DNA of 33,506 nucleotides from a virus, in IMG/VR virus record IMGVR_UViG_3300034104_004197, positions 1 through 33,506 of that record. One strand, written 5' to 3'. How positions within the stretch are numbered: the stretch's first letter is position 1; the number at the start of each line of letters is the position of its first letter. A program made the translations under genes and the position numbers. Of this stretch, positions 4,143 to 31,115 are shown piece by piece. Under the pieces are notes generated by a model, which saw nothing but the letters and a program-made list of their open reading frames with translations, made no database searches and was not told where the DNA came from.

Positions 4143-4745
4143 ATGGAACAGGTCGATGCAAGCTGGTGGGGCGACAGGGAAGCGTTCCTTGAGGACATCA
4201 AGGGGCGCATTGAGGCCGGGCAGCGCCCTGGTGCGACTCCGCAGCAGAAGGCAGACGCCGTAGAGGCCCGGCGACTGCTCCAAGCCCAGCGCGTCCGCGC
4301 CCAGCGTGGACGTGACCCGTTCGCCCCTCCGCCAGCCCCCCAGCCGCCACAGCCGCCACAGCAGCAGCCCCAGGACGCTCCAGATGAGCCGCAGGCGCCC
4401 TTTCGGCGTCGGCCCCTGGTGATGGACTCCTATGACCCAAGGGCCGGTCTAATGGCCGCCCACGGCCCCGTAGCGTACTCCCAAGGCAAGCACCTCCAGG
4501 GGATGATCGATCAGACGCTCGGTGCCTTCCAGGACGAGCATGATTCTCGGGTCGCCCAGAACCGCGAGCAGCGGCGCATGGAGCATGAGCTGCAGCTGGA
4601 GGCCATGCGTCAGGAAACCATCCTCAAGCAGCTCCAGGCTGCCCAGGAGGAGAAGAAGAAGGACCGTATTCAGCAGGCGTTACTATCCGGCCAGCCTGTT
4701 ACTAAGCGGCGTATCAACGGGCAATGGGTGCATGACGATGTTTGA
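4143..4745 (+). CDS. Proline/glutamine-linker protein with C-terminal coiled coil, 200 aa
   Basis: Starts at the ATG at 4143 behind AGGGAGG, immediately after the non-coding gap, so it is the first gene of the rightward virion operon. Three parts are visible: an N-terminal acidic/basic helical region (1-60), a proline/glutamine-rich linker (about 61-85, with PPAPQPPQPPQQQP), and a long charged helix rich in Gln, Glu, Arg and Lys (about 125-185), likely a coiled coil. A short C-terminal GQWVHDDV ends the protein. There is no enzyme signature. The composition and position suggest a minor virion or assembly protein; this is inferred only. Confidence 0.7.
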   Translation: MEQVDASWWGDREAFLEDIKGRIEAGQRPGATPQQKADAVEARRLLQAQRVRAQRGRDPFAPPPAPQPPQPPQQQPQDAPDEPQAPFRRRPLVMDSYDPRAGLMAAHGPVAYSQGKHLQGMIDQTLGAFQDEHDSRVAQNREQRRMEHELQLEAMRQETILKQLQAAQEEKKKDRIQQALLSGQPVTKRRINGQWVHDDV

Positions 4746-4771
4746 CTTCCTCTTTGACGATGACTGGGACG

Positions 4772-5047
4772 ATGGATACTGAAGGCGACAAGATACGGAA
4801 TCTGTTACCGAATCGTCCCGTCAAGGACGTGCAGGGCGGCAAGAAGTTTGTAGTGCGGGCCAAGGTGGGCGACGAGGAGCGGTTAGTACGCTTCGGGGAC
4901 GCTTCCATGGAGCATTACAAAGAGGGTGGTTCCGACCGGGGGCATGGCGATGAGGGCCGGCGGGCCAACTTTAAGTCCCGCCATAACTGCTCCGAGAAGA
5001 CCGACAAGCTGACGCCCGGCTATTGGTCCTGTAACTGGAGCTGGTAA
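4772..5047 (+). CDS. Small phage protein with RHNC...YWSC motif, about 91 aa
   Basis: The frame opens at 4742; likely starts are the ATG at 4772 or at 4760, and neither has a strong ribosome-binding site, so the start is uncertain. The core (KKFVVRAKVGDEERLVRFGD, then RRANFKSRHNC, then PGYWSCNWSW at the C-terminus) matches a small family I recall from tailed phages, often encoded near capsid and portal genes. It has beta strands followed by a basic helix and two conserved Cys in RHNC and YWSC. A structural or capsid-assembly role is inferred from neighbourhood. The TAA stop overlaps the next ATG by one base (TAATG). Confidence 0.75.
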   Translation: MDTEGDKIRNLLPNRPVKDVQGGKKFVVRAKVGDEERLVRFGDASMEHYKEGGSDRGHGDEGRRANFKSRHNCSEKTDKLTPGYWSCNWSW

Positions 5048-6435
5048 TGGCTTCACCGAGCCAGGTTGATACTGCCGGCCGTACTATCGCCGGACTCCTG
5101 GGGTATAACCCTGGCCCTGGTATCTACTCCCGCATGGAGCGTGCCGTCCAGGCAATGCCTGAGAACGTCCGTGTCCAGGAACTCCCCGGCCTGCTCAAGC
5201 GGTACAAGGACGGCGTCCCAGGCTGGGAGCTGAAGGCCGCCGACTTGGACGGCCTCGTCGCAGGCCGGGATGTGATCTCCCGAGACGAGCTGTTGGCGCG
5301 CGTGCGTGAGCGCAGCCCAGTGTACACACACAAAGAGGTAGTTCTTGGTGGCACGCCTCCGAGGCTATACGACACAGAACTGGTGTTCAACAACCAAGGC
5401 GTTGGCGTGCCAACGGAACTGCAAGCAGACGATTTTGCGGAAGCGCCGTCGCGGCTAGGATCGCAGGAAGTTCACGGCTGGCCAAAATACAAGCCGTACG
5501 GGCAGGGGGGCGATGCGTATACGGAACTCCTGCTCCTGCAGCCAAACTCTCCTGGGCAAGAGTTTGGTAATCACTGGAGGCTTGGAAGATACGCAGCATT
5601 CAGTGCTGTGGACCGCGCTGCTTCAGAGCGGGCAGTCGCCCACGCTCGCTTCGACACACACGGCGATGCGCTGCGGATCAACGAACTCCAATCGGACCTG
5701 GGCATTCACAACCGAAAGGCGAGGGAGTTTGCGGAACAAAACCCACAAACGGCACTGGTGAATGGGCAGCACGTTGTTCAGAACGCTCCAAGAGAACAGG
5801 GGCTCCCATTCCCGCTAGAAGATGCCTGGGCCGACATCCTAATAAAGCGGCTCGCCTTGGAAACCGCCCGGCAAGGCCATCGGGCTATCGAAGTTGCCTC
5901 ACCAAGAGCCATCGCAGACAAGGTCGGCGGCAACATCGACAACTACGAACACTTCTACGGCAAGGTAGTCCCGGGTGCGCTAGAGCGTCTCGGCAGGAAG
6001 ATGGGTGGGCTAACGGAAGACACTGTGTCCAGTCATAGTGGGTGGACGATGCAGCCGTGGGAGAGCGAGCTGTCGCGCATCCGTAATGAGGCGCTGCAAG
6101 CTGTTCCGGCCTCGCTGGACGGCCCGTATCGGAATCTAGTCCGCGCATATAGCAGCAACGAAAGGCCGCACATAATCGCTGGCTACGCGCAGGAGCTGGC
6201 GGCCCAGTCCCCTAATTCATTTGCCGACGAAATGCCTCTGTGGGTGAGTTTAGCGGAACGGGAGGGGGCAGCCAGGAGAGCGTGGCGGAATGTGAAGTCG
6301 GAATATGACGTGTCCGACGGCGCGCCGCAGCCAGCCAAGCGCTACATCATGTCCGACGAGATGCGTAGACGCCTCATTGAGCAGGGCGTGGGCGCGTCCC
6401 TCCTGGCTCCGTTGCTCATGCAGGGCGAGGAGTAA
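5047..6435 (+). CDS. Polyvalent-protein-type domain protein, 462 aa
   Basis: Starts at the ATG within TAATG, with GGAG seven bases upstream. The motif order matches a domain I know from large 'polyvalent' proteins of phages and conjugative elements: SRMERAVQAMPENVRVQELP (28-47), a P..W.L...DLDGLV region (58-71), VISRDELLARV (76-86), YTELLLLQP (158-166), HARFDTHGDALRINELQSDLG (199-219, with the ELQSD signature at 213-217), PFPLEDAWADILIKRLALETA (254-274) and YGKVVPGALERLGRK (304-318). In those proteins the domain is thought to be delivered with the DNA, but its activity is not established. The first 11 residues (MASPSQVDTAG) resemble those of the 7301 gene product. It probably travels inside the virion. 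Confidence 0.8.
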   Translation: MASPSQVDTAGRTIAGLLGYNPGPGIYSRMERAVQAMPENVRVQELPGLLKRYKDGVPGWELKAADLDGLVAGRDVISRDELLARVRERSPVYTHKEVVLGGTPPRLYDTELVFNNQGVGVPTELQADDFAEAPSRLGSQEVHGWPKYKPYGQGGDAYTELLLLQPNSPGQEFGNHWRLGRYAAFSAVDRAASERAVAHARFDTHGDALRINELQSDLGIHNRKAREFAEQNPQTALVNGQHVVQNAPREQGLPFPLEDAWADILIKRLALETARQGHRAIEVASPRAIADKVGGNIDNYEHFYGKVVPGALERLGRKMGGLTEDTVSSHSGWTMQPWESELSRIRNEALQAVPASLDGPYRNLVRAYSSNERPHIIAGYAQELAAQSPNSFADEMPLWVSLAEREGAARRAWRNVKSEYDVSDGAPQPAKRYIMSDEMRRRLIEQGVGASLLAPLLMQGEE

Positions 6436-7301
6436 TGCCAGACACCCAAGAGTCTCTGTACAACATCCCCGGCCGCCTGGCCCGAAACGTCTTTGGCTAC
6501 GAACTGGACTCCGACAAGGAGCGACAGGAAGACCAGAGGCAGGTTGCTCTCCTGGAGCGTCTCGCCAAGCAGTACCCCACGGGCGCCGACCGGACCAAGC
6601 TAGACCCGCGTCTCGCTGCCGACATCGGTTCCTATGAGCGTGGCGAGCTGGGGGATATACAGTCGCCCTACCATTACCGCGGTTGGTGGACGCCGGGCGC
6701 GCCGCTCTATGACGTGGTGCAGAACTTTGCATCAGTCCCGCAGATGGCCGTGGCAGGCAGCCAGCGTCTCGCCAACTGGGTGGACCCCGAAGCCACCCCC
6801 TACCCCAAGGCCAAGCAGCAGTTTGACTCGGCCCTCAACAGCTTCACAGGCTACGGTGCGGAAGCGATGGGCCTCGTCCCCAAGGGCACGCCCACCATGG
6901 CGGATGTGGCGGAAGAAGCCCGTGCCATGCGTGGCAACCGACCCGAGGGCTACTGGCCAGGGGCGTGGAATGATGCCGTGTCTGGCTATGCCTCGCAGCG
7001 CGGTGGCGAACTCCAGCTCTCGGCTGCTGATTCCCTGGAGGCCGCCGGTGTTCCCAGGACGCCAGCCCTTATCGCCGGCACGGCCATGGACAGTGTCCTG
7101 GATCCCTGGAATGGGCTAGGCGGCGCCGTGAAGGCCGCGCGAGCCGGCAAGCGGGCCTTGGGTTCCCTGGTCGGGGAGTTTGGCCTGGGGCAAGCCATGG
7201 TGGCCCCGTCTTACGGCGGCCCCGTCCTGGCGGGACTCCTCCCCGCCCCACAGCCGGCCGAGTACCGCACTCGTCCTGGCGACTACACGCGAGGGTACTG
7301 A
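6435..7301 (+). CDS. Hypothetical virion-associated protein, 288 aa
   Basis: ATG overlaps the previous stop by one base (TAATG) with GAGGAG just upstream, so it is translationally coupled between two polyvalent-type genes. The protein is mostly helical, with an N-terminal charged helix (DSDKERQEDQRQVALLERLAKQ), a Trp/Tyr/Pro-rich stretch (SPYHYRGWWTPGAPLYDVV), and an Ala/Gly-rich C-terminal half. A weakly hydrophobic segment lies near 245-265 (SLVGEFGLGQAMVAPSYGGP), followed by a proline-containing tail. No catalytic motif is visible. Its place between an ELQSD-domain gene and an ADP-ribosyltransferase-like gene suggests the three act together, perhaps as internal or ejected proteins. I do not recognise the family. 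Confidence 0.7.
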   Translation: MPDTQESLYNIPGRLARNVFGYELDSDKERQEDQRQVALLERLAKQYPTGADRTKLDPRLAADIGSYERGELGDIQSPYHYRGWWTPGAPLYDVVQNFASVPQMAVAGSQRLANWVDPEATPYPKAKQQFDSALNSFTGYGAEAMGLVPKGTPTMADVAEEARAMRGNRPEGYWPGAWNDAVSGYASQRGGELQLSAADSLEAAGVPRTPALIAGTAMDSVLDPWNGLGGAVKAARAGKRALGSLVGEFGLGQAMVAPSYGGPVLAGLLPAPQPAEYRTRPGDYTRGY

Positions 7302-8143
7302 TGCCAAGCCCCAGCCAGATCGACAAAGCCGGTGACGCTGTTCGCCAGGTGATTCGGGCCTACCACGGCAGCCCCTACGACTTTGACCGCTTCGACGCCA
7401 GCAAGATAGGTGCTGGCGAGGGGGCGCAAACATACGGGCATGGCTTGTACTTTGCGGGCAACGAGGCGGTGGCCGATGGCTATCGGACGAGGCTCGCCGG
7501 CACGTACGCGGGCGCCTTGGCAGACCCCGAAGACCTGCCAAAGTATTTTGCGCCCGGCAATGTGGTTGCTGGTTACGGAGGCCAGGACCGCGTGTTGGAT
7601 TTCATACCGGGTCCAGACGGCCCGTGGGACTGGCGCGTCAAAGTGGTGGCTGTTGGCCCCGATGGGAATCCGCTTCCGGGCGAGCGTCCGCGTTTTCACA
7701 GCACCGTGCCGGACCGCGCCAAGGTCGATAAGTTTTTTGGTCGCGAGCCTGTCAGGCCAGGCCATACCTACGAAGTTGAGCTAGGCGTTCCGGAGCGCGC
7801 ATTGCTGGATTGGGACGCACCAATCGGAGGCCAGCCTGCCGCTGTGCGGGAGATGCTCAACAATCGCCTTGGCGGCGGGTATTTCTCTATGATTGGCCAG
7901 CCTGGCGACGGGCGGCGAATGTGGCATCACTTCGTTGACAGCTATGGCCCACAAAAGGCAGCGGGGCGACTGCTGGATGCTGGCATACCTGGGGTTCGCT
8001 ATTTAGACGCCGGCTCGCGACACGCTGGCGACGGCACCCGCAACTACGTCATGTTCCCAGGCACCGAAGACTCCATCCGTATCCTGCGGAAGTACGGCCT
8101 TCTAGCTCCGGTGGCGGCGGGCGCCGCCGCCCAAGATCAGTGA
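7301..8143 (+). CDS. ADP-ribosyltransferase-like protein (ART-PolyVal type), 280 aa
   Basis: Starts at the ATG in TGATG behind GAGGG. The protein carries the hallmarks of the ADP-ribosyltransferase-like domain found in phage polyvalent proteins: YHGSP (21-25; first strand with the His that contacts NAD), GEGAQTYGHGLYFA (39-52; the Tyr-containing second motif), a TYEVELGVPERALLDWDAP stretch (156-174), AAGRLLDAGIPGVRYLDAGS (220-239) and GTRNYVMF (245-252). The classical third-motif glutamate is not obvious; related phage sequences carry the same RNYV.F pattern. The predicted role is transfer of ADP-ribose from NAD to a host target. The length fits a single-domain enzyme rather than a giant polyvalent protein. 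Residues 1-11 (MPSPSQIDKAG) resemble the start of the 5047 gene product. Confidence 0.85.
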   Translation: MPSPSQIDKAGDAVRQVIRAYHGSPYDFDRFDASKIGAGEGAQTYGHGLYFAGNEAVADGYRTRLAGTYAGALADPEDLPKYFAPGNVVAGYGGQDRVLDFIPGPDGPWDWRVKVVAVGPDGNPLPGERPRFHSTVPDRAKVDKFFGREPVRPGHTYEVELGVPERALLDWDAPIGGQPAAVREMLNNRLGGGYFSMIGQPGDGRRMWHHFVDSYGPQKAAGRLLDAGIPGVRYLDAGSRHAGDGTRNYVMFPGTEDSIRILRKYGLLAPVAAGAAAQDQ

Positions 8144-8239: not shown

Positions 8240-9256
8240 ATGTCAGACGAAATCAACGATCTTCCTGAGTCCGTAGCGGCCGATGCGGCGCCGGAAACAT
8301 CCGCGCCTGTTGCGGAATCGCAGCCTGTAGCCTCGCAGGGCAGCGGTTTCGGAACACCGTGGGAAGCGTTTAAGCACCTCCCCGAGTACAACGGTGCCGA
8401 CGATCTGTCCATCGCACAGGACTTGTACCGGGCCAAGCAGGGTTACCTGGAGAGCCAGCGGCAGCTCCAGCAGTACCAGCAGATCGTCCCGTACGCCCAG
8501 GAATATCTGAAGAACCAGCAGGCGTTCGCCGCCTGGCAGAAGGCCCAGGCCGAGGCGTCCCAGCCCAAGCCCCAGGAAGCGCCGAAGTGGTGGAACCCTC
8601 CCCAGGTCAAAGACACCTGGCGGTCCTACATCATCCGCGACCCGCAGACGGGCAAGGAAGTCATCGCCCCCGACGCTCCGTTTGAGGCCCAGCAGGCTCT
8701 GCGGGAGTACCAGGCGTACACGGCCGACTTCGCCCGCAAGTTCGTCACCGACCCCGAATCGACGCTTAAGCCGTTCGTTGAGCAGGTCGCGATGCAGAAG
8801 GCCCAGGAGCTTGTCCAGCAGCAGCTGGGCCAGTACCAGGCCAAGAACTTCGTCTCCGACCTGGAGCGGCAGAACGCGGACTGGCTCTATGACCAGCAGG
8901 GCAACGTGAGCCGCGAGGGCCAGGCCATCCAGGCATACATCCAGCAGGCCAGCGAGATCGGCATCTCGTCACCAGAGGCCCGTTGGAAGTACGCCACCGG
9001 CATGCTGCAGCGCGACCTGCTCCAGCTGCGATACCAGCAAATGGCGCAGGGTCAAGCCGGGGCTGTCGCGCCGCAGCCAGCGCCGATGGCGCCGCCGGCC
9101 GACCCAGTGGCTGAACAGAACATGCAGTTCCTTCGGGAGCGTGCAGTGCGAACCCCCAACCGTAGTGCAGGGACCACCGAGCCGCGGGCGCCGCGCCAGC
9201 GGATGAGTTTTGAAGAGCGGCTGCGAAGCCAACTTGCAACAGATGGAGTAATCTGA
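8240..9256 (+). CDS. Scaffolding protein, 338 aa
   Basis: Starts at the ATG at 8240 behind GAGGA. It lies directly upstream of the major capsid gene, separated by one base. The composition is typical of phage scaffolds: an acidic, disordered N-terminus (SDEINDLPESVAADAAPE), long Gln/Ala/Glu helices likely to form coiled coils (about 65-105 and 170-230), proline-rich linkers, and a basic C-terminal helix (RQRMSFEERLRSQLATDGVI). A C-terminal basic helix that docks on the capsid protein is usual in this class. The protein would direct procapsid assembly and be lost from mature heads. No protease signature is visible. The assignment rests on position and composition. Confidence 0.8.
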   Translation: MSDEINDLPESVAADAAPETSAPVAESQPVASQGSGFGTPWEAFKHLPEYNGADDLSIAQDLYRAKQGYLESQRQLQQYQQIVPYAQEYLKNQQAFAAWQKAQAEASQPKPQEAPKWWNPPQVKDTWRSYIIRDPQTGKEVIAPDAPFEAQQALREYQAYTADFARKFVTDPESTLKPFVEQVAMQKAQELVQQQLGQYQAKNFVSDLERQNADWLYDQQGNVSREGQAIQAYIQQASEIGISSPEARWKYATGMLQRDLLQLRYQQMAQGQAGAVAPQPAPMAPPADPVAEQNMQFLRERAVRTPNRSAGTTEPRAPRQRMSFEERLRSQLATDGVI

Positions 9257-9257
9257 C

Positions 9258-10364
9258 ATGGCGTCATCGACCGATTGGGCGAGGTCTATTGCAACGACGA
9301 TTGTTAATCATCTCCGTGAGGAGGAGATTGCGTCGTTGCGGAAGTACAAGGTGTTTGCGGCCCTGGAGGGCAGCGGTAACATTCGTACCAACGTCTCGGG
9401 CCGTGGTTTCGACTGGGAAATCCAGTACCGTAATCACACTCCGAGCGGCAACAATGGTGAGACTCCTCGCACCTTCTCGCGCCAGAACCTCTGGAAGCGT
9501 TTGGAGCTGGAGTTCCGCGGCGCACAAGTCTCCGACGCGATTTATAAAAAGGAGATGCTTGAGAACCGAAGCGCTCAGGCTCTTGTAAACGTCGCCGGTA
9601 AGATGTCCTCGCGTCTGATCACGTCGATGGAACAGTACCTCGCGCGTGAGTGGATCGTCGACGGGTACGCTGCTGGCAACGAGCTGCGGTTTCACGGCAT
9701 TGAGTCCTTTATGGGCGTCAACGGCAGTGTGAACATCGCTGACGGCTCGCAGCGGTCGAAGAACGCGGCCGATCCGTTCCTGTACCCGTCCGACACCTAC
9801 GCTGGTCTTTCGACCACGCTGGGTGCCTACGGCGGCTCGCAGGTCACTGGTGTGTGGCCCAACGGCTACGCCGAGCCTGAGTTTGACTTCTTCACTCCGG
9901 TGATCGTCAACGCGGTGAGCAGCTACTTCGGCACCACCGCGTGGAAGGACAACTGCGTGAAGGCTGTGCGTGAGGCGATCCACCAGACCCGCCGCAACGA
10001 CAGCAAGGAAGACCAGGTGGACATGCTGCTGCTTGATCGCCGCAGCTACATCGACTTCCTCAACACGCTGGACTCCAAGGAGCGGGTGATCGTCAGCCGC
10101 ACCAACGGCCTGCGGAGCTATGGTTTTACCGATGTATTTGAGCTGGACGGCATCGAAGTCAGCTCTGAGGGTAGTGTTCCCGCCAACACCGGCTACGGCC
10201 TGTCGATTGGCAACATGGAGCTGCTCTGCATGGAAGGCCAGCTGATGACCAGCGAGGGTCCGTTCTACGACGAAACCACGCAGCAGTACCGCTACGTGGT
10301 GTCGACGCTCGGCAACCTCAAGTTCAAGTCGCCCCGTAACTTCTTTAAGCTCGTCACCGCCTGA
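9258..10364 (+). CDS. Major capsid protein, 368 aa
   Basis: Starts at the ATG following the scaffold stop (TGA-C-ATG), with GGAG about ten bases upstream. I recognise the pattern of a phage major capsid family: an N-terminal helix (ATTIVNHLREEEIASLRKYKVF), GSGNIRTNVSGRGFDWEIQYR (38-58), RTFSRQNLWKRLELEFRG (71-88), ITSMEQYLAREW (120-131), and a C-terminal region with DMLLLDRRSYIDFLNTLD and YRYVVSTLGNLKFKSPRNFF. The length suits an HK97-fold subunit. There is no long N-terminal delta domain, which agrees with a separate scaffold gene. Codon use looks optimised, as expected for the most abundant virion protein. Confidence 0.88.
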   Translation: MASSTDWARSIATTIVNHLREEEIASLRKYKVFAALEGSGNIRTNVSGRGFDWEIQYRNHTPSGNNGETPRTFSRQNLWKRLELEFRGAQVSDAIYKKEMLENRSAQALVNVAGKMSSRLITSMEQYLAREWIVDGYAAGNELRFHGIESFMGVNGSVNIADGSQRSKNAADPFLYPSDTYAGLSTTLGAYGGSQVTGVWPNGYAEPEFDFFTPVIVNAVSSYFGTTAWKDNCVKAVREAIHQTRRNDSKEDQVDMLLLDRRSYIDFLNTLDSKERVIVSRTNGLRSYGFTDVFELDGIEVSSEGSVPANTGYGLSIGNMELLCMEGQLMTSEGPFYDETTQQYRYVVSTLGNLKFKSPRNFFKLVTA

Positions 10365-12496: not shown

Positions 12497-13360
12497 ATGC
12501 AGCAAAAGTTCATCGTCGGTTTCTGCACCTTCTCCTACGGCGGCAACGGCGGCATCTCCTCCGAGGTGCCTGACATCCGGGAGTGGATGACCCCCTTGGT
12601 GACGCAGATCGCCAAGGACGAGCGCATCCAGGACATCCGCATCTGGAACCTGTCCGACACGCCCATCACCATGACCCGCAACCGGGCGGTGCTGATGGCT
12701 CGCGAGTACGGCGTGGACGTGCTTGTGATGGTGGACTCGGACATGAAGCCCGATATGTGCGCACCGGAAGGGAAGCCGTTCTTCCAGTCCTCGTTCGACT
12801 TCCTGGTCAACCACTACGCCAAGGGGCCGGTGGTGATCGGCGCTCCGTATTGCGGCCCGCCGCCGACCGAGAACGTCTACGTGTTCCGGTGGCAGAACCA
12901 GCAGTCCGAGAGTGCGAATCCCGACTTCCAGCTGGAGATGTATGACCGGCACACGGCCGCCAAGATGAGCGGCATCCAGGAGTGCGCCGCCCTGCCGACC
13001 GGCCTCATCATGTATGACATGCGGGCCTTTGACCTGACCGAGCCAAAGACCGCGGACGATCGTCCCTGGTTCTACTACGAATGGTCCGACATGTACGCCG
13101 CCCACAAGGCGTCCACGGAGGACGTGACGATGACCCGCGACCTCTCGCTCGTTGGCACCCAGCGGCTGGGCTACAACCCGGTCTTCTGCAACTGGGACGC
13201 CTGGGCGGGGCACTGGAAGCCCAAGTGCGTGGGCAAGCCGGTCTTCATTGCCGCCAAGGATGTGGGGGCCAAGATGAAGCAGAACTGGGAAGCCAACTAT
13301 GACCCCGGCGTGAAGCTCATGGAGCTGCGACCGCGGTGGAGCGTGCGGCCGACCGCGTGA
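12497..13360 (+). CDS. GT-A-fold glycosyltransferase-like protein, 287 aa
   Basis: Starts at the ATG at 12497 behind GAGGTG. The sequence shows the glycosyltransferase family A pattern: an N-terminal beta strand (KFIVGFCTFSYGG), a helix, then TPITMTRNRAVLMAREYGVDVLVMVDSDMKPD (55-86) containing the metal/nucleotide-sugar-binding DxD motif as DSD at 80-82. A conserved acceptor-side region (GIQECAALPTGLIMYDMRAF) and a WSDMYAAHKASTEDVTMTRD segment follow, in which E/D residues are likely catalytic. Phages encode such enzymes to modify virion proteins, DNA or host polysaccharide. Its place among structural genes favours virion glycosylation, which is inferred. The GTG of the next gene overlaps its stop. 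Confidence 0.85.
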   Translation: MQQKFIVGFCTFSYGGNGGISSEVPDIREWMTPLVTQIAKDERIQDIRIWNLSDTPITMTRNRAVLMAREYGVDVLVMVDSDMKPDMCAPEGKPFFQSSFDFLVNHYAKGPVVIGAPYCGPPPTENVYVFRWQNQQSESANPDFQLEMYDRHTAAKMSGIQECAALPTGLIMYDMRAFDLTEPKTADDRPWFYYEWSDMYAAHKASTEDVTMTRDLSLVGTQRLGYNPVFCNWDAWAGHWKPKCVGKPVFIAAKDVGAKMKQNWEANYDPGVKLMELRPRWSVRPTA

Positions 13361-14010
13361 GCGACACCAAAGCCTGCACCCAGTGTGGCACCAGCTACCC
13401 GCTGACAAGCGAACACTGGCACAAGAGCAAGGACGGCTGGCACGCCAAGTGCCGCAAGTGCCGGAACTCCGTGGACAAGCGGGGCCGAGACAAGAAGCGG
13501 CAGAAGAAGCTGGCGGAGATTGAACGCGGGGCCGTGGATTACTTCCTCGCCTCCGCCCGCATCGGCGGCGCCAACATCCCTCACTCCTCCGAGCTGCTGG
13601 AGGTGCTGCTGCGGTACTTCGGCGGCGTGGAGGGTTTCGGGCGGGCGTTTATGAAGCAGATATATGACGCCCCTCCCGGCGGTGCGTTCCGCACCAAGCT
13701 CTTGGATAGCGTGCTGCGGTTGATCGTCAACAACACTGCCATGGGCGGCTCCAAGAAACCCCTGGAGCTGATGACCGAGGAAGAGCTGGAGGCGCAGTAC
13801 AGGCGGGACGTTCTCGCCGCCGCCCTGGCCTATCACCAGAAGCTGGAGGTGAAGAATGAGATGCGATCTGTGCCGGCACTACCGGCAGGACAAGGAGATG
13901 AAGGATCGGGGGGAGTGCCGCCGGTTTCCGCCGGGGGCCAGCCAGACCCTCAAGGGCAAGGGGGAGATCCTGCACCACATGGCGTTCGGCTTCCCGATGG
14001 TGTTCGGTGA
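13357..14010 (+). CDS. Zinc-ribbon protein upstream of terminase, 217 aa; possible small terminase
   Basis: The GTG at 13357 is chosen because it overlaps the previous TGA (GTGA junction); GGAG lies about 13 bases upstream. An earlier in-frame GTG at 13336 has no ribosome-binding site. Residues 7-35 form a zinc ribbon, CxxC-x21-CxxC (C7, C10, C32, C35). A helical domain follows with SSELLEVLLRYFGGVEGFG, LLDSVLRLIVNN and KPLELMTEEELEAQY. The domain and its place just before the large terminase suggest a DNA-recognition role such as the small terminase subunit; this is inference. The last ~50 residues lie over the 13856 gene in another frame and are low-complexity, so the original C-terminus may have been near 13855. 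Confidence 0.65.
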   Translation: MSDTKACTQCGTSYPLTSEHWHKSKDGWHAKCRKCRNSVDKRGRDKKRQKKLAEIERGAVDYFLASARIGGANIPHSSELLEVLLRYFGGVEGFGRAFMKQIYDAPPGGAFRTKLLDSVLRLIVNNTAMGGSKKPLELMTEEELEAQYRRDVLAAALAYHQKLEVKNEMRSVPALPAGQGDEGSGGVPPVSAGGQPDPQGQGGDPAPHGVRLPDGVR

Positions 14011-24738: not shown

Positions 24739-25010
24739 TCACCCTAGAGAAGTGGGCTGGCCTCGTCACCAACGCTTCGCCGTACGCCCTTCCGCCCGGG
24801 GCGATGCAATACCAGCTGAACGTGCAGTGCCTGTCGCCAGGGCAGCTGACGGTGCGGCCCGGGACCGCGTCGATTGCCATCACGGCTCAAGACACCACCA
24901 ACCAGCCCGTAGTGTCCGTGTTTCGCTACCAGCTTGGGGTGGGTGAACACCTGGTCTACCAGGACGCTCTCGGGCGTATTTTCTCCACCGTCGTTACCGG
25001 GGGCGCGTGA
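24735..25010 (+). CDS. N-terminal part of a split tail protein, 91 aa, apparent AUA start
   Basis: GGAGG at 24724-24728 is spaced six bases from ATA (24735-24737), which overlaps the upstream TAG in the way ATGA does elsewhere. No ATG, GTG or TTG in frame fits that ribosome-binding site; an ATG at 24690 is in frame but has only a weak site and overlaps the previous gene. The first residues after ATA are VTLEKWAGLVTNASPYALPP, then LNVQCLSPGQLTVRPGTASI and YQLGVGEHLVYQDALGRI. This is the start of a large podovirus tail protein pattern (W.GG....P..LP.GA....N......G.L..RPG) usually continuous with a propeller-like body. Its stop overlaps the 25010 ATG (TGATG). Confidence 0.6.
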   Translation: MVTLEKWAGLVTNASPYALPPGAMQYQLNVQCLSPGQLTVRPGTASIAITAQDTTNQPVVSVFRYQLGVGEHLVYQDALGRIFSTVVTGGA

Positions 25011-27610
25011 TGCTCGCAAGCCGGCAGTCTGGTGCTGTGGTGTCCATCTCTCTGTCCACGGGGGGCAGCGGCTACACATCGCAGCCGTCTGTCTCGCTCT
25101 CGGGCGGCGGTGGCACGGGGGCCGTGGCGGTGGCCCACATGGCCGGCACGCAGATCGACTCCATTGTGCTGACCGCAGGCGGCACAGGGTACACGTCGAA
25201 CCCCACGGTGACGATCAGCGGCGGCTCCGGAGCGGGGGCCGCGGCGACGGCATACGCCCACACGGCGACCAGGCGGCCCGCGAGCTTTGTCCGCTCACGC
25301 TTCAACGACATGTACGTGTTTGACGGTGCCGGCCGTGGACTGCGGTGGGATGGCACGGCGAACAAGATGCAGCCCGTGGGAATCCAGAAGCCCGCCCTTG
25401 GCCCGGTGGTGACCGTGGCCAACTCGGGGATGGCCGGCTACGTGGATGCCGTCAACATCGTCTCGGGTGGCGCGGGCTACTCCACGCCTCCCACGGTGAC
25501 GTTTACGGGCGGCTCTGCCACCAAGGCCGCCAAGGGGCGTGCCGAGGTTACGGGTGGCCGGGTCACGGGCGTGATGATCTCGGAGGCTGGGGCTGGCTAC
25601 CAAACCGCACCGTCCATCTCGTTCAGCGGCGGCAATGCCACGGCCGCGTCCTTCCAGGTCGGCGTCCTGGGGTCCGTGGGGTCGCTGGCTGTGGCGAATG
25701 TCGGGTCGGGCTACACCTCCGAGCCTACGGTGGTGTTCTCCACCAAGGAGGGTCTGACCCAGGCCAACGCTACCGTCAGCGTGTCGGACGGCAAGGTGTC
25801 TTCCGTGACGCTCCTGTCGGCCGGCACGGGCGCAACGACAGACGTGACGGCAACGCTCTCTGGGGGCGGAGGCACGGGGGCGTCACTGGGCGTCACCATG
25901 TCCTACCGCGTGAACGCCGTCACCGTCTCCTCTGGCGGGACCGGCCAGTACGTGGCCCCCATCATCACGTTCACGCCGGCCGTGTCGGACGTTGGGGCTT
26001 CGCCCGCGGCGGCCACCGCCACCGTCAACTCCACGGGTGCGGTGACCAAGGTCACGGTGTACGCGGGCGGCAGCTACTCCGCCCCGCCCACGGCGGAGAT
26101 CGCTGACTCCAACGCCAAGGCGTACGCCACACTGGCCAATGCCATGCAGGGCATCTACAAGTGCGCCATCCGCTACCTGGACAACACGCCACGTACGGCC
26201 AGAGGTCCGATCCCCAGTTCCATCAGCGAGCTGGTGGAGGTCGATGTGACCGCCGGTGCCTCGTCGCTGACCTGGTCCTTCGCCAATCGACATGTCGGGC
26301 TGGATGACCGCGTCTATGCCATGGAGCTGTACCGTACCACCGCTGACCAGAGCGTTCTGCTCTACCGGGTGGCGACGATCTACCGCACGGACGCCGCGTG
26401 GACCGGCACGTACACGGACTCCTTGAGCGATGACCAGCTGATCGACACGGATCGCCTGGATTACGGCCTGCTCCCCGTGACGCTGCCGTCCGGCCAGCTC
26501 AACGCCCGCCGCTTCGGCGTGCCGCCCGGCAACTACGCCGTGGCCTGCATGTTCCAGGATCGACTGTGGATGGCCGTGGACACCAGCGGCAAGTCGCCCA
26601 ACAGTCTCATGTTCTCCGAGATTGACGAGCCCGAGTCGGTGCCGATGGAGAACGAGCTTGTTGTGCAGGAGAGCGCGGGCGACTCCGACGCCGTGGTCGC
26701 ATTGATCCCGCTGGGGTCAGCCCTCATCGTCGCCCAGAGCCGCCACCTCTATAAGCTGCAATACGTAGCCCAGCCGGTGATCGATGCCAGCATTCTCCTG
26801 GCTGGCTACCGCGGCATTCTCAATAGTCAGTGCTGGGCCGTCCTGGGGGGCGTGGCGTTCATTGCGGACGGCTATGGCATGTACGCCTTCGACGGCACCC
26901 GGGAAGACCCGATCTCCGTGCCAGTGGATGACTTCTGGCGGGACGGTGCCATCGACTTCACCAAGGCACACCTGTGCCACGTCCACGCCGATGCGATGAC
27001 CAAGGTGGTGCGGTTCTTCTACTGCACTTCTGCGAACACCTACCCCGTCCAGGCTCTGTGCTACGGCGTCCTGTCGAAGGCATGGTGGCAGGAGCAGTAC
27101 CCGGTGCCGATGACTGCCGGTGCGCCGACCGTCGTTGGTGGCAAGCAGGCTGTGGCATACGGCACATCCACGGGAGGCTTCGTCTCGCACAGTGGTTTCT
27201 CGGACTCCGGGACGGCCATTACGTGGGGCTTTCGCACCGGCAACATGGCCCTGACGAACGAGAAGGGCGACCGCTCCGTGACGCTGACCTACAAGCCCAC
27301 GGACCTAGATACAGACTACCGGCTGCGGCTGCACTTCAATGGCTCGTCCACCGGACGCAATAACGCCATTGTCTCCGACCGCGGGCAGGCCGGCGTGTCC
27401 ATCCAGGCCGGCGGCGTGGCCGTCAATACCAAGAAGGCGCTCTCGGCTCTTGGCGATTCGACCGGCGTGGCCCGCGTCTACTTCTCCGGTCGCGTCGATG
27501 ACCGCTCGGCGGGAGCCGACAAGCACCTGGCAATTGCCATGGCGGGCACGCAGTCCTCGTCCGGAGACGCTCCGGTCATTCACTCCATCACGGTTGCCGG
27601 CGTAACGTAA
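25010..27610 (+). CDS. Large tail protein with Gly-rich beta repeats, 866 aa
   Basis: Starts at the ATG in TGATG; the ribosome is probably coupled from the 91-aa gene. Residues 1-85 and about 140-390 contain repeated units of the form GG(S/T/A)GY(T/S)(S/T)xPTVT(I/F)SGG followed by an Ala-rich strand; I see about eight diverged copies. The intervening stretch (ASFVRSRFNDMYVFDGAGRG, LRWDGTANKM) and the rest (RHVGLDDRVYAMELYRTTAD, FIADGYGMYAFDGTREDP, SHSGFSDSG) look like blades of a tail tube/nozzle protein of the podovirus type. Its start matches the point where related proteins continue directly from the RPG-type N-terminus, so the gene pair appears to be one ancestral gene. Confidence 0.75.
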   Translation: MLASRQSGAVVSISLSTGGSGYTSQPSVSLSGGGGTGAVAVAHMAGTQIDSIVLTAGGTGYTSNPTVTISGGSGAGAAATAYAHTATRRPASFVRSRFNDMYVFDGAGRGLRWDGTANKMQPVGIQKPALGPVVTVANSGMAGYVDAVNIVSGGAGYSTPPTVTFTGGSATKAAKGRAEVTGGRVTGVMISEAGAGYQTAPSISFSGGNATAASFQVGVLGSVGSLAVANVGSGYTSEPTVVFSTKEGLTQANATVSVSDGKVSSVTLLSAGTGATTDVTATLSGGGGTGASLGVTMSYRVNAVTVSSGGTGQYVAPIITFTPAVSDVGASPAAATATVNSTGAVTKVTVYAGGSYSAPPTAEIADSNAKAYATLANAMQGIYKCAIRYLDNTPRTARGPIPSSISELVEVDVTAGASSLTWSFANRHVGLDDRVYAMELYRTTADQSVLLYRVATIYRTDAAWTGTYTDSLSDDQLIDTDRLDYGLLPVTLPSGQLNARRFGVPPGNYAVACMFQDRLWMAVDTSGKSPNSLMFSEIDEPESVPMENELVVQESAGDSDAVVALIPLGSALIVAQSRHLYKLQYVAQPVIDASILLAGYRGILNSQCWAVLGGVAFIADGYGMYAFDGTREDPISVPVDDFWRDGAIDFTKAHLCHVHADAMTKVVRFFYCTSANTYPVQALCYGVLSKAWWQEQYPVPMTAGAPTVVGGKQAVAYGTSTGGFVSHSGFSDSGTAITWGFRTGNMALTNEKGDRSVTLTYKPTDLDTDYRLRLHFNGSSTGRNNAIVSDRGQAGVSIQAGGVAVNTKKALSALGDSTGVARVYFSGRVDDRSAGADKHLAIAMAGTQSSSGDAPVIHSITVAGVT

Positions 27611-29874
27611 TGCTGACACAAGCGATGCCGGCGCTGGCTCAAGCCCTAACGGGCGTGCTGCCAGACGCCGCCCTGCGGCAGCTGATGCAGGCACTGGGGA
27701 ATTGCCAGCAGTCCCTGGCGCACCGCGGCAGCACGCAGTTCAGCAACGAGCGGCAGACGCTCCCGAATGGACTCGCACGCGGGGGCAGCTGGAACCCCGC
27801 GTCCTACGCCGAGCTGCTGCCGTCCGCAGGCCAGAACGTGTTTGTGGACGTGCCATCTGGCGGCAGCGGCGGCTACCCGGGCGCCGGCAACTACCAGTAC
27901 CGCAACGGGTTCCAGTTCCCGATCAACAGCACCTTCAACAACAACCAGTATTACGGCGGCCCGACGTTCACGGTGTTCGGGGACACCAACCTGGGCAACC
28001 TGTCGGTGCAGAACATATACGCCCAGACCATCAACAACATCCCCGTCGCACGGCCTCGCCCGCAGGACAGCCCAGAGTCCGGCAATCCGGATGGTGGCCC
28101 GGCTGGCGGCGGTGGCGCTAACATCAACGTCAACCAGATCGGAGGAGGTGGCGGATTTGGTGGAGCCGGGCCGGGGTTGCTCTTCACGCCGGCCGTCGAA
28201 AAGAAGGCCATCGTCACCAACATCCGCGCCAACAACCCCGACATCACCGTGACGAAGGTCACCAAGGTCGGCTATCCGAGCAAGGATATTGCCGTCTCGC
28301 TCACGCAGTGGGACACGCCGTCCATCGACCTGAGCGTGAAGGGCAGCACGTCGGTGGCGATACCAACGTCTGCCGCGCTCACCAAGTTCACCGGCACTGG
28401 CGCCGGGACCGTTCAGATACCCACCAAGGCAGAACTGAGCGGCATGAAGTTGTCGTTCAGCGGCAACGTCGCTGTGCCGAATAAGCTGTCCATCGCTGAA
28501 ATTGCAGCGACATGCACGGTGCCGGTTGCCATCCCCACAGTCGGAACGCTCTCGTCGCTGACGCTCGGCAGCACGGCGGTGTCCTTTAACATCCCGACCT
28601 CCGTGACCCTGCCGACATACACGGGTTCCTCAAATGTGTCCATACCTGACACCTGCGACGTTTCGTTTAATGGAACACCGTCGCTTCCGGCGCTGTCTGC
28701 CACAAGCTCGCCTGTCGCGTTTGACATTCCAACGAGCATCACCCTGCCGCAGTATTCCGGCAGCACCTCGCTGGCGATCCCAGATAAATGTGAGGTGGTG
28801 TTTGACGGAGTGCCGTCGCTTCCGGCGCTGTCTGCCACAAGCTCGGTGATTTCAATCGCCGTGCCGACCACTGTCGATCTGTCGGAATATAAGTACAAGG
28901 CGACGTGCAGTTCGTTTGACAGCATTCTGTCGGGCAAGACGGCGTCCGGGCAAACCGTGACGTTCAACGTCCCAGTTGTCACGGGTGGAAGCCTGGACGA
29001 GAACTGCAAGTTCGTCCCCACCACCGGCACGCAGTCCGTAACCATCACGCTGCCGCAGCTGACCGTGGACTTCACCAAGGGGACAGTTACGCCCACCGTC
29101 AACGTCACACCGGCCTTTCTTGCCCCGGTGGGGCTTGGTGGTGTTGTCGCGCAGAACGTGACCCCGACAATTACTCCATCTTACAAGACCGCATTCTCGC
29201 TGCCGGCCCTAAAGGCGAACCTGTCGACCGTCACTTCCACACTCTTGACCCTCACGTCGGACGCCAAGGCCGCTGCCACGCTCAACACTGTCTCTAAGTC
29301 CGTCACGCCGGTCATTACGCCGGAATACAAGAGCAACTTCTCGCTGCCGGCCTTGCAGGCCAAGCTGTCAACGCTGACCAAGACAAGCGTCAGCATCACA
29401 TCTAAGGCGGATTCGGCGGCTACGTTTACCACCTCGCAGCAGTCGGTCACGCCAACCATCAATGCGACCTCTATTGGTCCCGTCAACCTGACGCCGGGCG
29501 TGTCCAAGGACATCGGCGGAACCGTCAAGCTGTCGTCGCCCGCGTCCGTTTCTGTAGATGGAACGGAGAGCAAGGCCGTGTCTGGCACGGTGGAGGTGAC
29601 CAGCTACGGCTCCATCGCCCTCACCACCACGGCCCAGCCTCTTGAGGTCACGCTGAACGCTACGGACACGTCCATCACGCTGACCACTACGCCGACCACC
29701 GTAGAGATTCAGTCCACCGGCACTGCGAAGTACAGCAAGCTGTCATCGGCAAGCGTGAACCCGGCGAACGACGAGCTGACCCTGACCAACGGGACCGACA
29801 ACATCACCGTGGACGTTGATAAGTCGCTCAAGGTGAGCAAGGACTTCCTCATCTACTACAGGCCGCGGTTCTGA
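27610..29874 (+). CDS. Long beta-repeat tail fibre/spike, 754 aa
   Basis: Starts in TAATG. A short helical N-terminus (MLTQAMPALAQALTGVLPDA then LRQLMQALGNCQQSL) is followed by a Gly/Asn/Tyr region (GAGNYQYRNGFQFPINSTFN), a fibre-type strand (NLSVQNIYAQTINN) and a Gly-rich linker (GGGGANINVNQIGGGGG). The remaining ~550 residues are almost entirely Thr/Ser/Val/Pro-rich strands with repeats such as IPTSVTLPTYTGSSNVSIPD, and IPTSITLPQYSGSTSLAIPD. Two repeats are encoded by an identical 33-base DNA segment. This fits a long trimeric fibre that could contact host surface or other virion proteins. No enzymatic depolymerase motif is seen. Confidence 0.8.
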   Translation: MLTQAMPALAQALTGVLPDAALRQLMQALGNCQQSLAHRGSTQFSNERQTLPNGLARGGSWNPASYAELLPSAGQNVFVDVPSGGSGGYPGAGNYQYRNGFQFPINSTFNNNQYYGGPTFTVFGDTNLGNLSVQNIYAQTINNIPVARPRPQDSPESGNPDGGPAGGGGANINVNQIGGGGGFGGAGPGLLFTPAVEKKAIVTNIRANNPDITVTKVTKVGYPSKDIAVSLTQWDTPSIDLSVKGSTSVAIPTSAALTKFTGTGAGTVQIPTKAELSGMKLSFSGNVAVPNKLSIAEIAATCTVPVAIPTVGTLSSLTLGSTAVSFNIPTSVTLPTYTGSSNVSIPDTCDVSFNGTPSLPALSATSSPVAFDIPTSITLPQYSGSTSLAIPDKCEVVFDGVPSLPALSATSSVISIAVPTTVDLSEYKYKATCSSFDSILSGKTASGQTVTFNVPVVTGGSLDENCKFVPTTGTQSVTITLPQLTVDFTKGTVTPTVNVTPAFLAPVGLGGVVAQNVTPTITPSYKTAFSLPALKANLSTVTSTLLTLTSDAKAAATLNTVSKSVTPVITPEYKSNFSLPALQAKLSTLTKTSVSITSKADSAATFTTSQQSVTPTINATSIGPVNLTPGVSKDIGGTVKLSSPASVSVDGTESKAVSGTVEVTSYGSIALTTTAQPLEVTLNATDTSITLTTTPTTVEIQSTGTAKYSKLSSASVNPANDELTLTNGTDNITVDVDKSLKVSKDFLIYYRPRF
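28678..28710 (+). repeat. Exact 33-bp direct repeat inside the fibre gene, copy 1
   Basis: The segment starts CCGTCGCTTCCGGCG and encodes (P)SLPALSATSS. It is identical to 28813-28845, 135 bases (45 codons) downstream, so the reading frame is kept. Confidence 0.9.
28813..28845 (+). repeat. Exact 33-bp direct repeat inside the fibre gene, copy 2
   Basis: Second copy of the segment at 28678-28710. Flanking codons have diverged while this core is unchanged, suggesting recent duplication or gene conversion. Confidence 0.9.
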
Positions 29875-31115
29875 TGGCCGTTTGCACGCAGACTACGGAC
29901 GGCAGCTGCTGCGTCGGGACAACCTGCTTCTCCGTGAAGGAGTGCAAGTGCGCCTGCCTGGGCGGCAGCTTCCGATCCGACCGCACCTGCGCCACCAGCA
30001 ACTGCTACCGCATCTCGGACGGCGCGTGCTTTACCGCCAACCATTGCGCCTGCACCGTCACCTATAACGGCGTGTGGTACGCGACGGGAACCTGCGACTG
30101 CCGCACGCACCCCAACCCGAATGTGTGCGACCCGTCCCGCTGCCGGGCGTGCAGCGCCTCTTTTGGTACGTGCTACAGCACATGCCTGTACCCGCGGGAC
30201 TGCTGCTACAACTCCACCACCCTCACGGTGGCCTGTTGCTTGGAGTCGCAGGAGTGCCAGGGCGGGACGTGCGTCAATCGCTGCGCCGCCGGCCAGACCT
30301 ACTGCCGCACCTCGCTGAATCCGTTCACGTACACCTGCTGCCCATCGGGGCAGGACTGCTGCAACGGCCAGTGCATCGGGATCACCAGCACCAACACTGT
30401 CCAGTTCGACCTTGGAATCAACGACTGGACCGGCGGGCCAACGGTGACGGCCGGCAAGTACATCTCCGTGACGGCCACCGCCCAAGGCAGTGCGTACGGC
30501 ACGCCGGGGCGAGCATCTTGGAACAACAGCGGCGGCGAGACTACGCCGGATGGCGTTGGCCTGTGCTGCGCCGGATGCAACGTCGATGCCACCATCAGCC
30601 ACATGGCCCTGATCGGGAAGATCGGCGCCGGCGGGACGCCATTCCTGCTCGGCGCCAGCGGCGGAGCTGACGCCACCGCATCGGGCCAGCTCTTCGTTCG
30701 GCACAACGGTACGTGCGTTGGCGATTACACCGGGCAGTACGTGGTGACGATTGTCGTTCGCGGCTGTAATCCCGTGACGCCGAGCGAGGCCGAGGCCGTT
30801 TCCACGCCGGCCGTGCGGCAGTCGCAGGACAAGCCACAAGCCGGCCCGGGCACGGAGCTGAAGGCACTCCTGAAGTACATCGGCATCGTCGCCAAGCCCG
30901 ACTGCCCTTGTAATACGCGGGCGGCCATCATGGACGAGATGGAGGACCGGGAGCCTGGGTGGTGCCTGGCGAACATCGACACCATCCTGGATTGGCTCAA
31001 GGAACAGGCGGAAAACCGCGGCCTGCCGTTCGTCCGGGCGGCGGCAAAACTGCTGGTAAAGCGGGCTATTTCCAACGCGAAACGGAAATCCGCCCGCGAG
31101 GGCAATAGTAAGTAG
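29874..31115 (+). CDS. Cys-rich protein with LecA-like lectin domain, 413 aa
   Basis: Starts in TGATG. Three regions are visible. Residues 1-168 contain 32 cysteines by my count, many as CC or CxC (SCCVGTTC, CKCAC, CTCDC-type, CPSGQDCCNGQC), like a knot- or EGF-type disulfide-rich module. Residues about 175-296 match the PA-IL (LecA) galactose-binding fold pattern: W.GG.TVTAG.YISVTA, SHMALIGKIGAGGTPFLLG (242-260) and GQLFVRHNGT...GDYTGQYV (271-290), where LecA has its calcium/sugar ligands. Residues 326-405 are a helical domain (GTELKALLKYIGI, CPCNTRAAIMDEM, WCLANIDTILDWLKEQA) that I recall, tentatively, from planctomycete and related phage proteins. Likely a surface-exposed virion lectin; the disulfides would need an oxidising environment. 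Confidence 0.8.
   Translation: MAVCTQTTDGSCCVGTTCFSVKECKCACLGGSFRSDRTCATSNCYRISDGACFTANHCACTVTYNGVWYATGTCDCRTHPNPNVCDPSRCRACSASFGTCYSTCLYPRDCCYNSTTLTVACCLESQECQGGTCVNRCAAGQTYCRTSLNPFTYTCCPSGQDCCNGQCIGITSTNTVQFDLGINDWTGGPTVTAGKYISVTATAQGSAYGTPGRASWNNSGGETTPDGVGLCCAGCNVDATISHMALIGKIGAGGTPFLLGASGGADATASGQLFVRHNGTCVGDYTGQYVVTIVVRGCNPVTPSEAEAVSTPAVRQSQDKPQAGPGTELKALLKYIGIVAKPDCPCNTRAAIMDEMEDREPGWCLANIDTILDWLKEQAENRGLPFVRAAAKLLVKRAISNAKRKSAREGNSK

Follow-up and report, generated by a model that had tools for sequence, protein, structure and literature searches.

The internal proteins of bacteriophage T4 are diverse and conserved only in their targeting sequence (PMC3012670), which comprises 10–20 residues (PMC5694885), and the packaged T4 protein Alt is an ADP-ribosyltransferase (PMC5512222). 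The locus described here resembles the T4 capsid-targeting sequence (CTS) of the internal proteins and Alt in that a short N-terminal peptide, hereafter the tag, is found on otherwise unrelated phage proteins, including a putative ADP-ribosyltransferase, and we count the position of the tag next to head genes as a further likeness. The two systems also differ. The tag occurs at C-termini as well, which is not the case for the T4 type, and the phage has a P22-like portal rather than a T4-like head gene set. We claim no sequence relationship, and packaging is presumed here. Moreover, neither a sign of cleavage nor a prohead protease was found: the contigs of eight relatives gave no family match to S78 or ClpP-type proteases (in the S77 search, the control gave no match); hence, there would probably be no T4-like removal of the tag.

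A second likeness is to polyvalent proteins (Iyer et al. 2017, PMC5512222), which is based on the presence of an ART-PolyVal-like domain, and of domains resembling other polyvalent effectors, in genes beside head genes, and on genuinely fused versions in a sister clade. In the clade of the sequence studied here, however, these domains are separate, end-tagged proteins and not one multidomain chain. In the literature, of which our coverage was incomplete, we found no description of such a tag in phages related to this one.

Encapsulin cargo-loading peptides are short terminal peptides that bring unrelated enzymes into a capsid-type shell, and the docking helices of modular polyketide synthases are short terminal helices that replace covalent fusion of modules. 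By description only, the tag resembles the former in being short, terminal, and carried by unrelated enzymes, whereas the shell differs and the tag occurs at either end. The likeness to the latter, again descriptive, is that of short end helices that would replace fusion, but the tag has the same consensus at both ends.

Tagged genes upstream of the scaffold gene

The window, i.e., the whole stretch of DNA analyzed, is the 33.5-kb virus record IMGVR_UViG_3300034104_004197 (33,506 nucleotides); the longest relatives are contigs of approximately 56–62 kb. Profile searches identified genes for TerL, a P22-like portal, and the major capsid protein (positions 9258–10364; phrog_9953 major head protein, E = 5e-8). 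A search of 50,697 phage records gave no match to the capsid protein, and neither a capsid relative nor an ELQSD relative was found among cultured phage records. Directly 5′ of the capsid gene lies the gene for a scaffold-like protein (8240–9256), named for its position, which is kept in 75 of the capsid-anchored loci and the window. This gene forms the right border of the tagged zone, and gene 4143 (4143–4745), encoding a glutamine-rich and probably helical protein, heads it. The product of gene 4143 gave coiled-coil-type Pfam matches at chance level and nothing else, and homologues occur in 36 of 41 genomes of the window clade versus none of 22 sister-clade genomes. Gene 4143 and the scaffold and capsid genes, like genes 4742, 5047, 6435, and 7301 described below, lie on the plus strand.

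Other features of the window include the gene directly before the large terminase gene (13336–14010), whose product matches HNH and endonuclease VII families and not small terminases, and an 867-residue protein (25007–27610) with Gly/Ser/Thr-rich repeats of the GGTGYTSxPTVTISGG type that matches several families of virion structural and head-closure proteins. At 29874–31115, the window encodes protein sequence that is extremely rich in cysteine (of the type MACCKCCCENGTPPGECCG); in the relatives L117, L119, L125, and L129, such proteins are often encoded just 5′ of the tagged zone.

A sequence-only reading of the window had pointed out that the products of genes 5047 and 7301 begin with similar peptides, MASPSQVDTAG and MPSPSQIDKAG, and then diverge. 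Both peptides are present, on MASPSQVDTAGRTIAGLL (5047–5100) and MPSPSQIDKAGDAVRQVI (7301–7354), and when their common peptide was searched for as a degenerate DNA pattern, the window matched at these two genes only, with no match in 100 shuffled windows, which rules out a chance origin. Both starts touch or overlap the preceding stop codon (TAATG and TGATG), and each is preceded by a Shine-Dalgarno-like stretch. The tag is not confined to these two genes: gene 4742 (4742–5047) likely starts at the ATG at 4772, from which it begins with MDTEGDKIRNLL (4772–4807), scoring equally well or better (motif score of 13.2 at the N-terminus). As for gene 6435 (6435–7301; 288 residues), which had been described as lacking the tag, this holds for its N-terminus, but relatives of the protein are tagged at the N- or C-terminus, and the end of the window protein, RPGDYTRGY, is a degenerate version of the TxPGDYIRxY that ends its nearest relatives.

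The bodies behind these tags indeed diverge. Profile comparison of the 5047 and 7301 products showed no shared domain except for a weak C-terminal alignment, and common descent of the two bodies was rejected. Gene 7301 (7301–8143; 280 residues) encodes a putative ADP-ribosyltransferase of the polyvalent-protein type, matching ART-PolyVal (PF18760) with E = 1.8e-5 and 25.9 bits, which is below the curated cut-off of 31.2. The structure matches of its predicted model include ART-PolyVal proteins, whereas a Foldseek search of the model against the PDB gave no significant match; by profile and model, we consider this body ART-PolyVal-like. The ELQSD protein encoded by gene 5047 (5047–6435; 462 residues; 19 homologues aligned) has a model (pLDDT 71) for which nearly all VIA-align rows were GNAT (highest Z of 9.0, rmsd of 3.5 across 124 residues), with Foldseek E-values above 0.1, giving moderate support for a GNAT-like body. 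A known polyvalent-protein domain is probably present in the 7301 product, but the tagged proteins of the window clade are single short chains rather than chains of several domains.

Tagged bodies in relatives look, by eye, kinase-like (L103; weak profile match to ABC1, E = 0.019), methyltransferase-like (L105; weak profile match, E = 0.07), and peptidase-like (L107; HEIMH), and Pfam and PHROGs annotation of the other tagged families was mostly empty. The tagged proteins are probably cell-modifying. The HVA1-type body of gene 4742 is untagged in three other phages that were read. Short bodies of this IPNRPV type and of the KAGAWSRKEGQDPDGGLNA type (families 6 and 7, e.g., L108 and L109) both follow the start MDxEGDKIRxL and seem to substitute for one another between genomes. 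A second common end was also seen, namely, Ala/Gly-rich C-terminal tails on different bodies, such as YGLLAPVAAGAAAQDQ in the 7301 product (8072–8140), YGFTAPVAAGAAQGGE in the kinase-like protein (L103:2534–3241), and VAPVAAGAASQQEQQK in L197, as well as at L096:8163–8864.

A portable terminal motif in the window clade

Relatives were picked by capsid protein alone, blind to the tag, and had to have more than 2.5 kb 5′ of the scaffold gene, yielding 41 non-redundant genomes including the window. Many contigs are fragments, genes were called with a simple script, and most body annotation is weak; gene starts were set by Shine-Dalgarno match, start codon, and gene overlap, and the tag was not used. 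The contigs of two relatives with 78–80% identical capsid proteins (L187 and L188) were binned to Pirellulaceae and Ignavibacteriales metagenome-assembled genomes, which is at most a weak host hint because bins may hold stray phage contigs.

Applied to 224 genes, which fall into 47 body families, an unsupervised EM motif search yielded DxxGDx[IV]RxL. In leave-family-out testing, where a family passes if its median N-terminal score exceeds 95% of its internal windows, 15 of the 47 families were above the test level versus 2.35 expected (binomial p = 5e-9). The families are single-linkage BLAST clusters, and spurious open reading frames may be among the singletons counted. The count of different bodies is more likely too low than too high because the largest cluster unites three of them, those of 5047, 7301, and a kinase-like protein, apparently via similar C-terminal tails. 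Protein counts given below ignore relatedness except where families are named.

A short common start on unrelated bodies near capsid genes thus holds across the relatives. SPSQxDxAG is not supported as the conserved unit: across families, DxxGDx[IV]RxL is best kept, and the SPSQ prefix is specific to the sub-lineage of the window. An exact-peptide scan of IMG/VR gave three matches, of which one was relevant (the ELQSD protein of L094) and two were in unrelated contexts, whereas a regular-expression scan of 79 loci gave none because the prefix is lineage-specific and the pattern was too strict. The starts of 7301 and 5047 homologues are related to each other without being identical, e.g., MPTPSQLDASGDAIRQVI, MPNPIRYVDDAGDSVRQVI, MAGPGTVDAAGRAIAGLL, and MGKLDDAGRAIAGLL, and unrelated neighbors use the start of their own genome (MGKIDDLIARLG next to MGKIDDLIAAVG; MPNPVRFVDQAGDAIR next to MPNPVRFADQAGDAVR); this within-genome similarity exceeds a permutation null (p = 0.0005). 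Some homologues in the same gene order do have divergent N-termini (the ADP-ribosyltransferase MGGPLRPSLLPRLAGQ in L033 and the ELQSD protein of L092) while others are tagged, so the tag is common but not universal.

Conservation acts at the protein level. In 11 within-genome pairs with unrelated bodies (after exclusion of one pair of paralogues), different codons encode 40 of the 76 residues that are shared, including serine TCN/AGY changes, which indicates selection on the peptide and disfavors a DNA-level repeat or recombination site. The tags are amphipathic, with a helical moment of 0.485, compared with 0.268 within proteins and 0.288 when the tag residues are shuffled, and a peak at 100 degrees. 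They are also predicted to be helical: AlphaFold2 placed a helix at residues 4–17 of 5047 with low confidence and at residues 4–15 of 7301, where confidence was fair (pLDDT 72–86 across the tag).

A signal restricted to N-termini is not supported, as C-terminal copies exist too. The motif trained on N-termini matched 33 of 1,790 windows at the first ten start positions, 2 of 26,885 in protein middles, and 11 of 1,790 at the last ten positions (6.2 versus 0.07 per 1000 windows in the middles). Pooling of the last 40 positions gave 19 of 7,160 (Fisher p = 1.8e-11 for C-terminal enrichment, relatives counted separately, with about half of the listed C-terminal cases belonging to one family). C-terminal examples come from seven body families and include VDKAGDAIRRLRNAQ (L142), VDDAGEVIRRLR (L117), and DQAGQAIRRLV (L171). 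Among 143 proteins of at least 150 residues, 43 had the motif at the N-terminus only, 19 at the C-terminus only, and one at both (threshold of 6; Fisher p = 0.007), so that a protein nearly always bears the tag at a single end.

Within whole contigs, the tag is essentially confined to the zone between gene 4143 and the scaffold gene. There, across three contigs of ~60 kb, a terminal score of at least 8 was found for 8 of 21 genes versus 1 of 238 genes elsewhere (Fisher p = 4e-9); the single match outside is an internal GTG start, and one of the eight inside is a small HNH-like protein that perhaps matches by chance. Eight structural and packaging genes had the motif at 1 of 289 N-termini and 8 of 289 C-termini (threshold of 6), and these controls, together with the sister-clade proteins described below, disfavor an origin in the general composition of protein starts.

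Fused and split architectures

The sister clade, which was gathered with L049 as query, has a capsid protein that is ~55% identical and comprises 22 non-redundant genomes. Most of these have one long protein in the slot 5′ of the scaffold gene. The longest slot protein has 492–1389 residues in 21 of the 22 genomes, versus 196–585 residues per genome in the window clade; L197 shows a partial split, and in L235 and L236 the slot is occupied by other genes. For ten of these long proteins, we found matches to tagged window-clade families, including the ADP-ribosyltransferase, ELQSD, and kinase-like bodies. Behind a variable effector domain, 20 of the 21 long proteins share a C-terminal region of ~440 residues, which presumably serves packaging. 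No convincing homologue of this region was found in the window clade, and the idea that the window clade has the domain as a separate protein, in the form of 6435 (or families 0 and 5), was rejected, as no similarity was found.

At a score of at least 6, the motif is present at none of the N-termini and one of the C-termini of the 21 long proteins. A few start with MSELIRRL or MSELARKLI, possibly a shortened form of the tag. In L207 and L210, the ELQSD domain is N-terminal in proteins of 1355 and 1389 residues, and their start, MATPxAxRxALRANxIxGLLEYKPGPGIYS, resembles the tagged start of 5047.

Possible roles of the tag

The sequence-only reading proposed that the shared start is a delivery or packaging signal. 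Given that the relatives bear out the shared start and that the nameable bodies belong to the polyvalent-effector type, the peptide is best read as a tag for loading or targeting, without the restriction to N-termini and with a different conserved unit. We consider it fairly probable that the tag is a portable docking helix that loads separate polyvalent-type effectors into the virion, in place of the C-terminal domain of the sister clade. The tag would sit at one end of each effector, usually the N-terminus and sometimes the C-terminus, with the genes just 5′ of those for scaffold and capsid, and would bind a component of the assembling head, such as the scaffold, a portal-proximal core, or the helical 4143 protein; 4143 and the scaffold are both candidate partners. 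Each effector would thereby be built into the virion and delivered along with the DNA, and, in the simplest account, the tag would stand in, non-covalently, for the fusion to the C-terminal domain seen in the sister clade, both of which would bring effectors into the particle. A bolder form, to which we give slightly less than an even chance, is an end-independent virion-loading code, in which interchangeable single-domain effectors carry a helix of ~12 residues at either terminus, the sister clade has one fused injected protein, and new effectors are gained by adding the peptide.

The main rival, which we regard as unlikely, is homotypic docking, whereby the helices bind each other and the split polyvalent modules reassemble non-covalently into a complex that is packaged or active in the infected cell. 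Such docking would fit the occurrence of one consensus at the N-termini of some neighbors and the C-termini of others, the match of tags within a genome, and the covalent fusion of the modules in the sister clade; yet 8 of 37 genomes have a single tagged protein at the threshold used, and the tags are mostly N-terminal rather than N-terminal paired with C-terminal. Improbable in our judgment is a regulatory or delivery helix without a packaging role, maintaining effectors in an inactive or soluble state while they are in the producing cell or helping them across a membrane after ejection. The amphipathic nature of the tag speaks for such a role, as does a possible need to silence effectors that would be active in the producing cell. 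Against it, membrane-active helices do not typically show a charge pattern like D..GD..R, two short non-enzyme-like proteins (the 4742 type) are tagged as well, and a shared carrier is a simpler account than one common regulator for so many different bodies at either end.

It is more improbable still that the peptide is a functionless residue of recent duplication or recombination, with bodies swapped behind an existing 5′ end. The two tags of L107 are nearly identical in DNA (32 of 36 bases), and similar tags have clearly had their bodies swapped, e.g., in the two 4742-type families, but most pairs differ in the codons for about half of the residues they share, meaning that the peptide was kept while the DNA diverged, and 5′ ends cannot explain the C-terminal copies. 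Finally, the tag may conceivably have a common role in transcription or folding.

If the tag is a docking helix for virion loading, it would mark injected effectors from sequence alone, in a group for which the capsid protein revealed no cultured relative. It would also show how one fused polyvalent protein can give way to several that are encoded and addressed individually, and it would provide a short handle on how phages load proteins into heads, making the packaging of polyvalent-type effectors directly testable.
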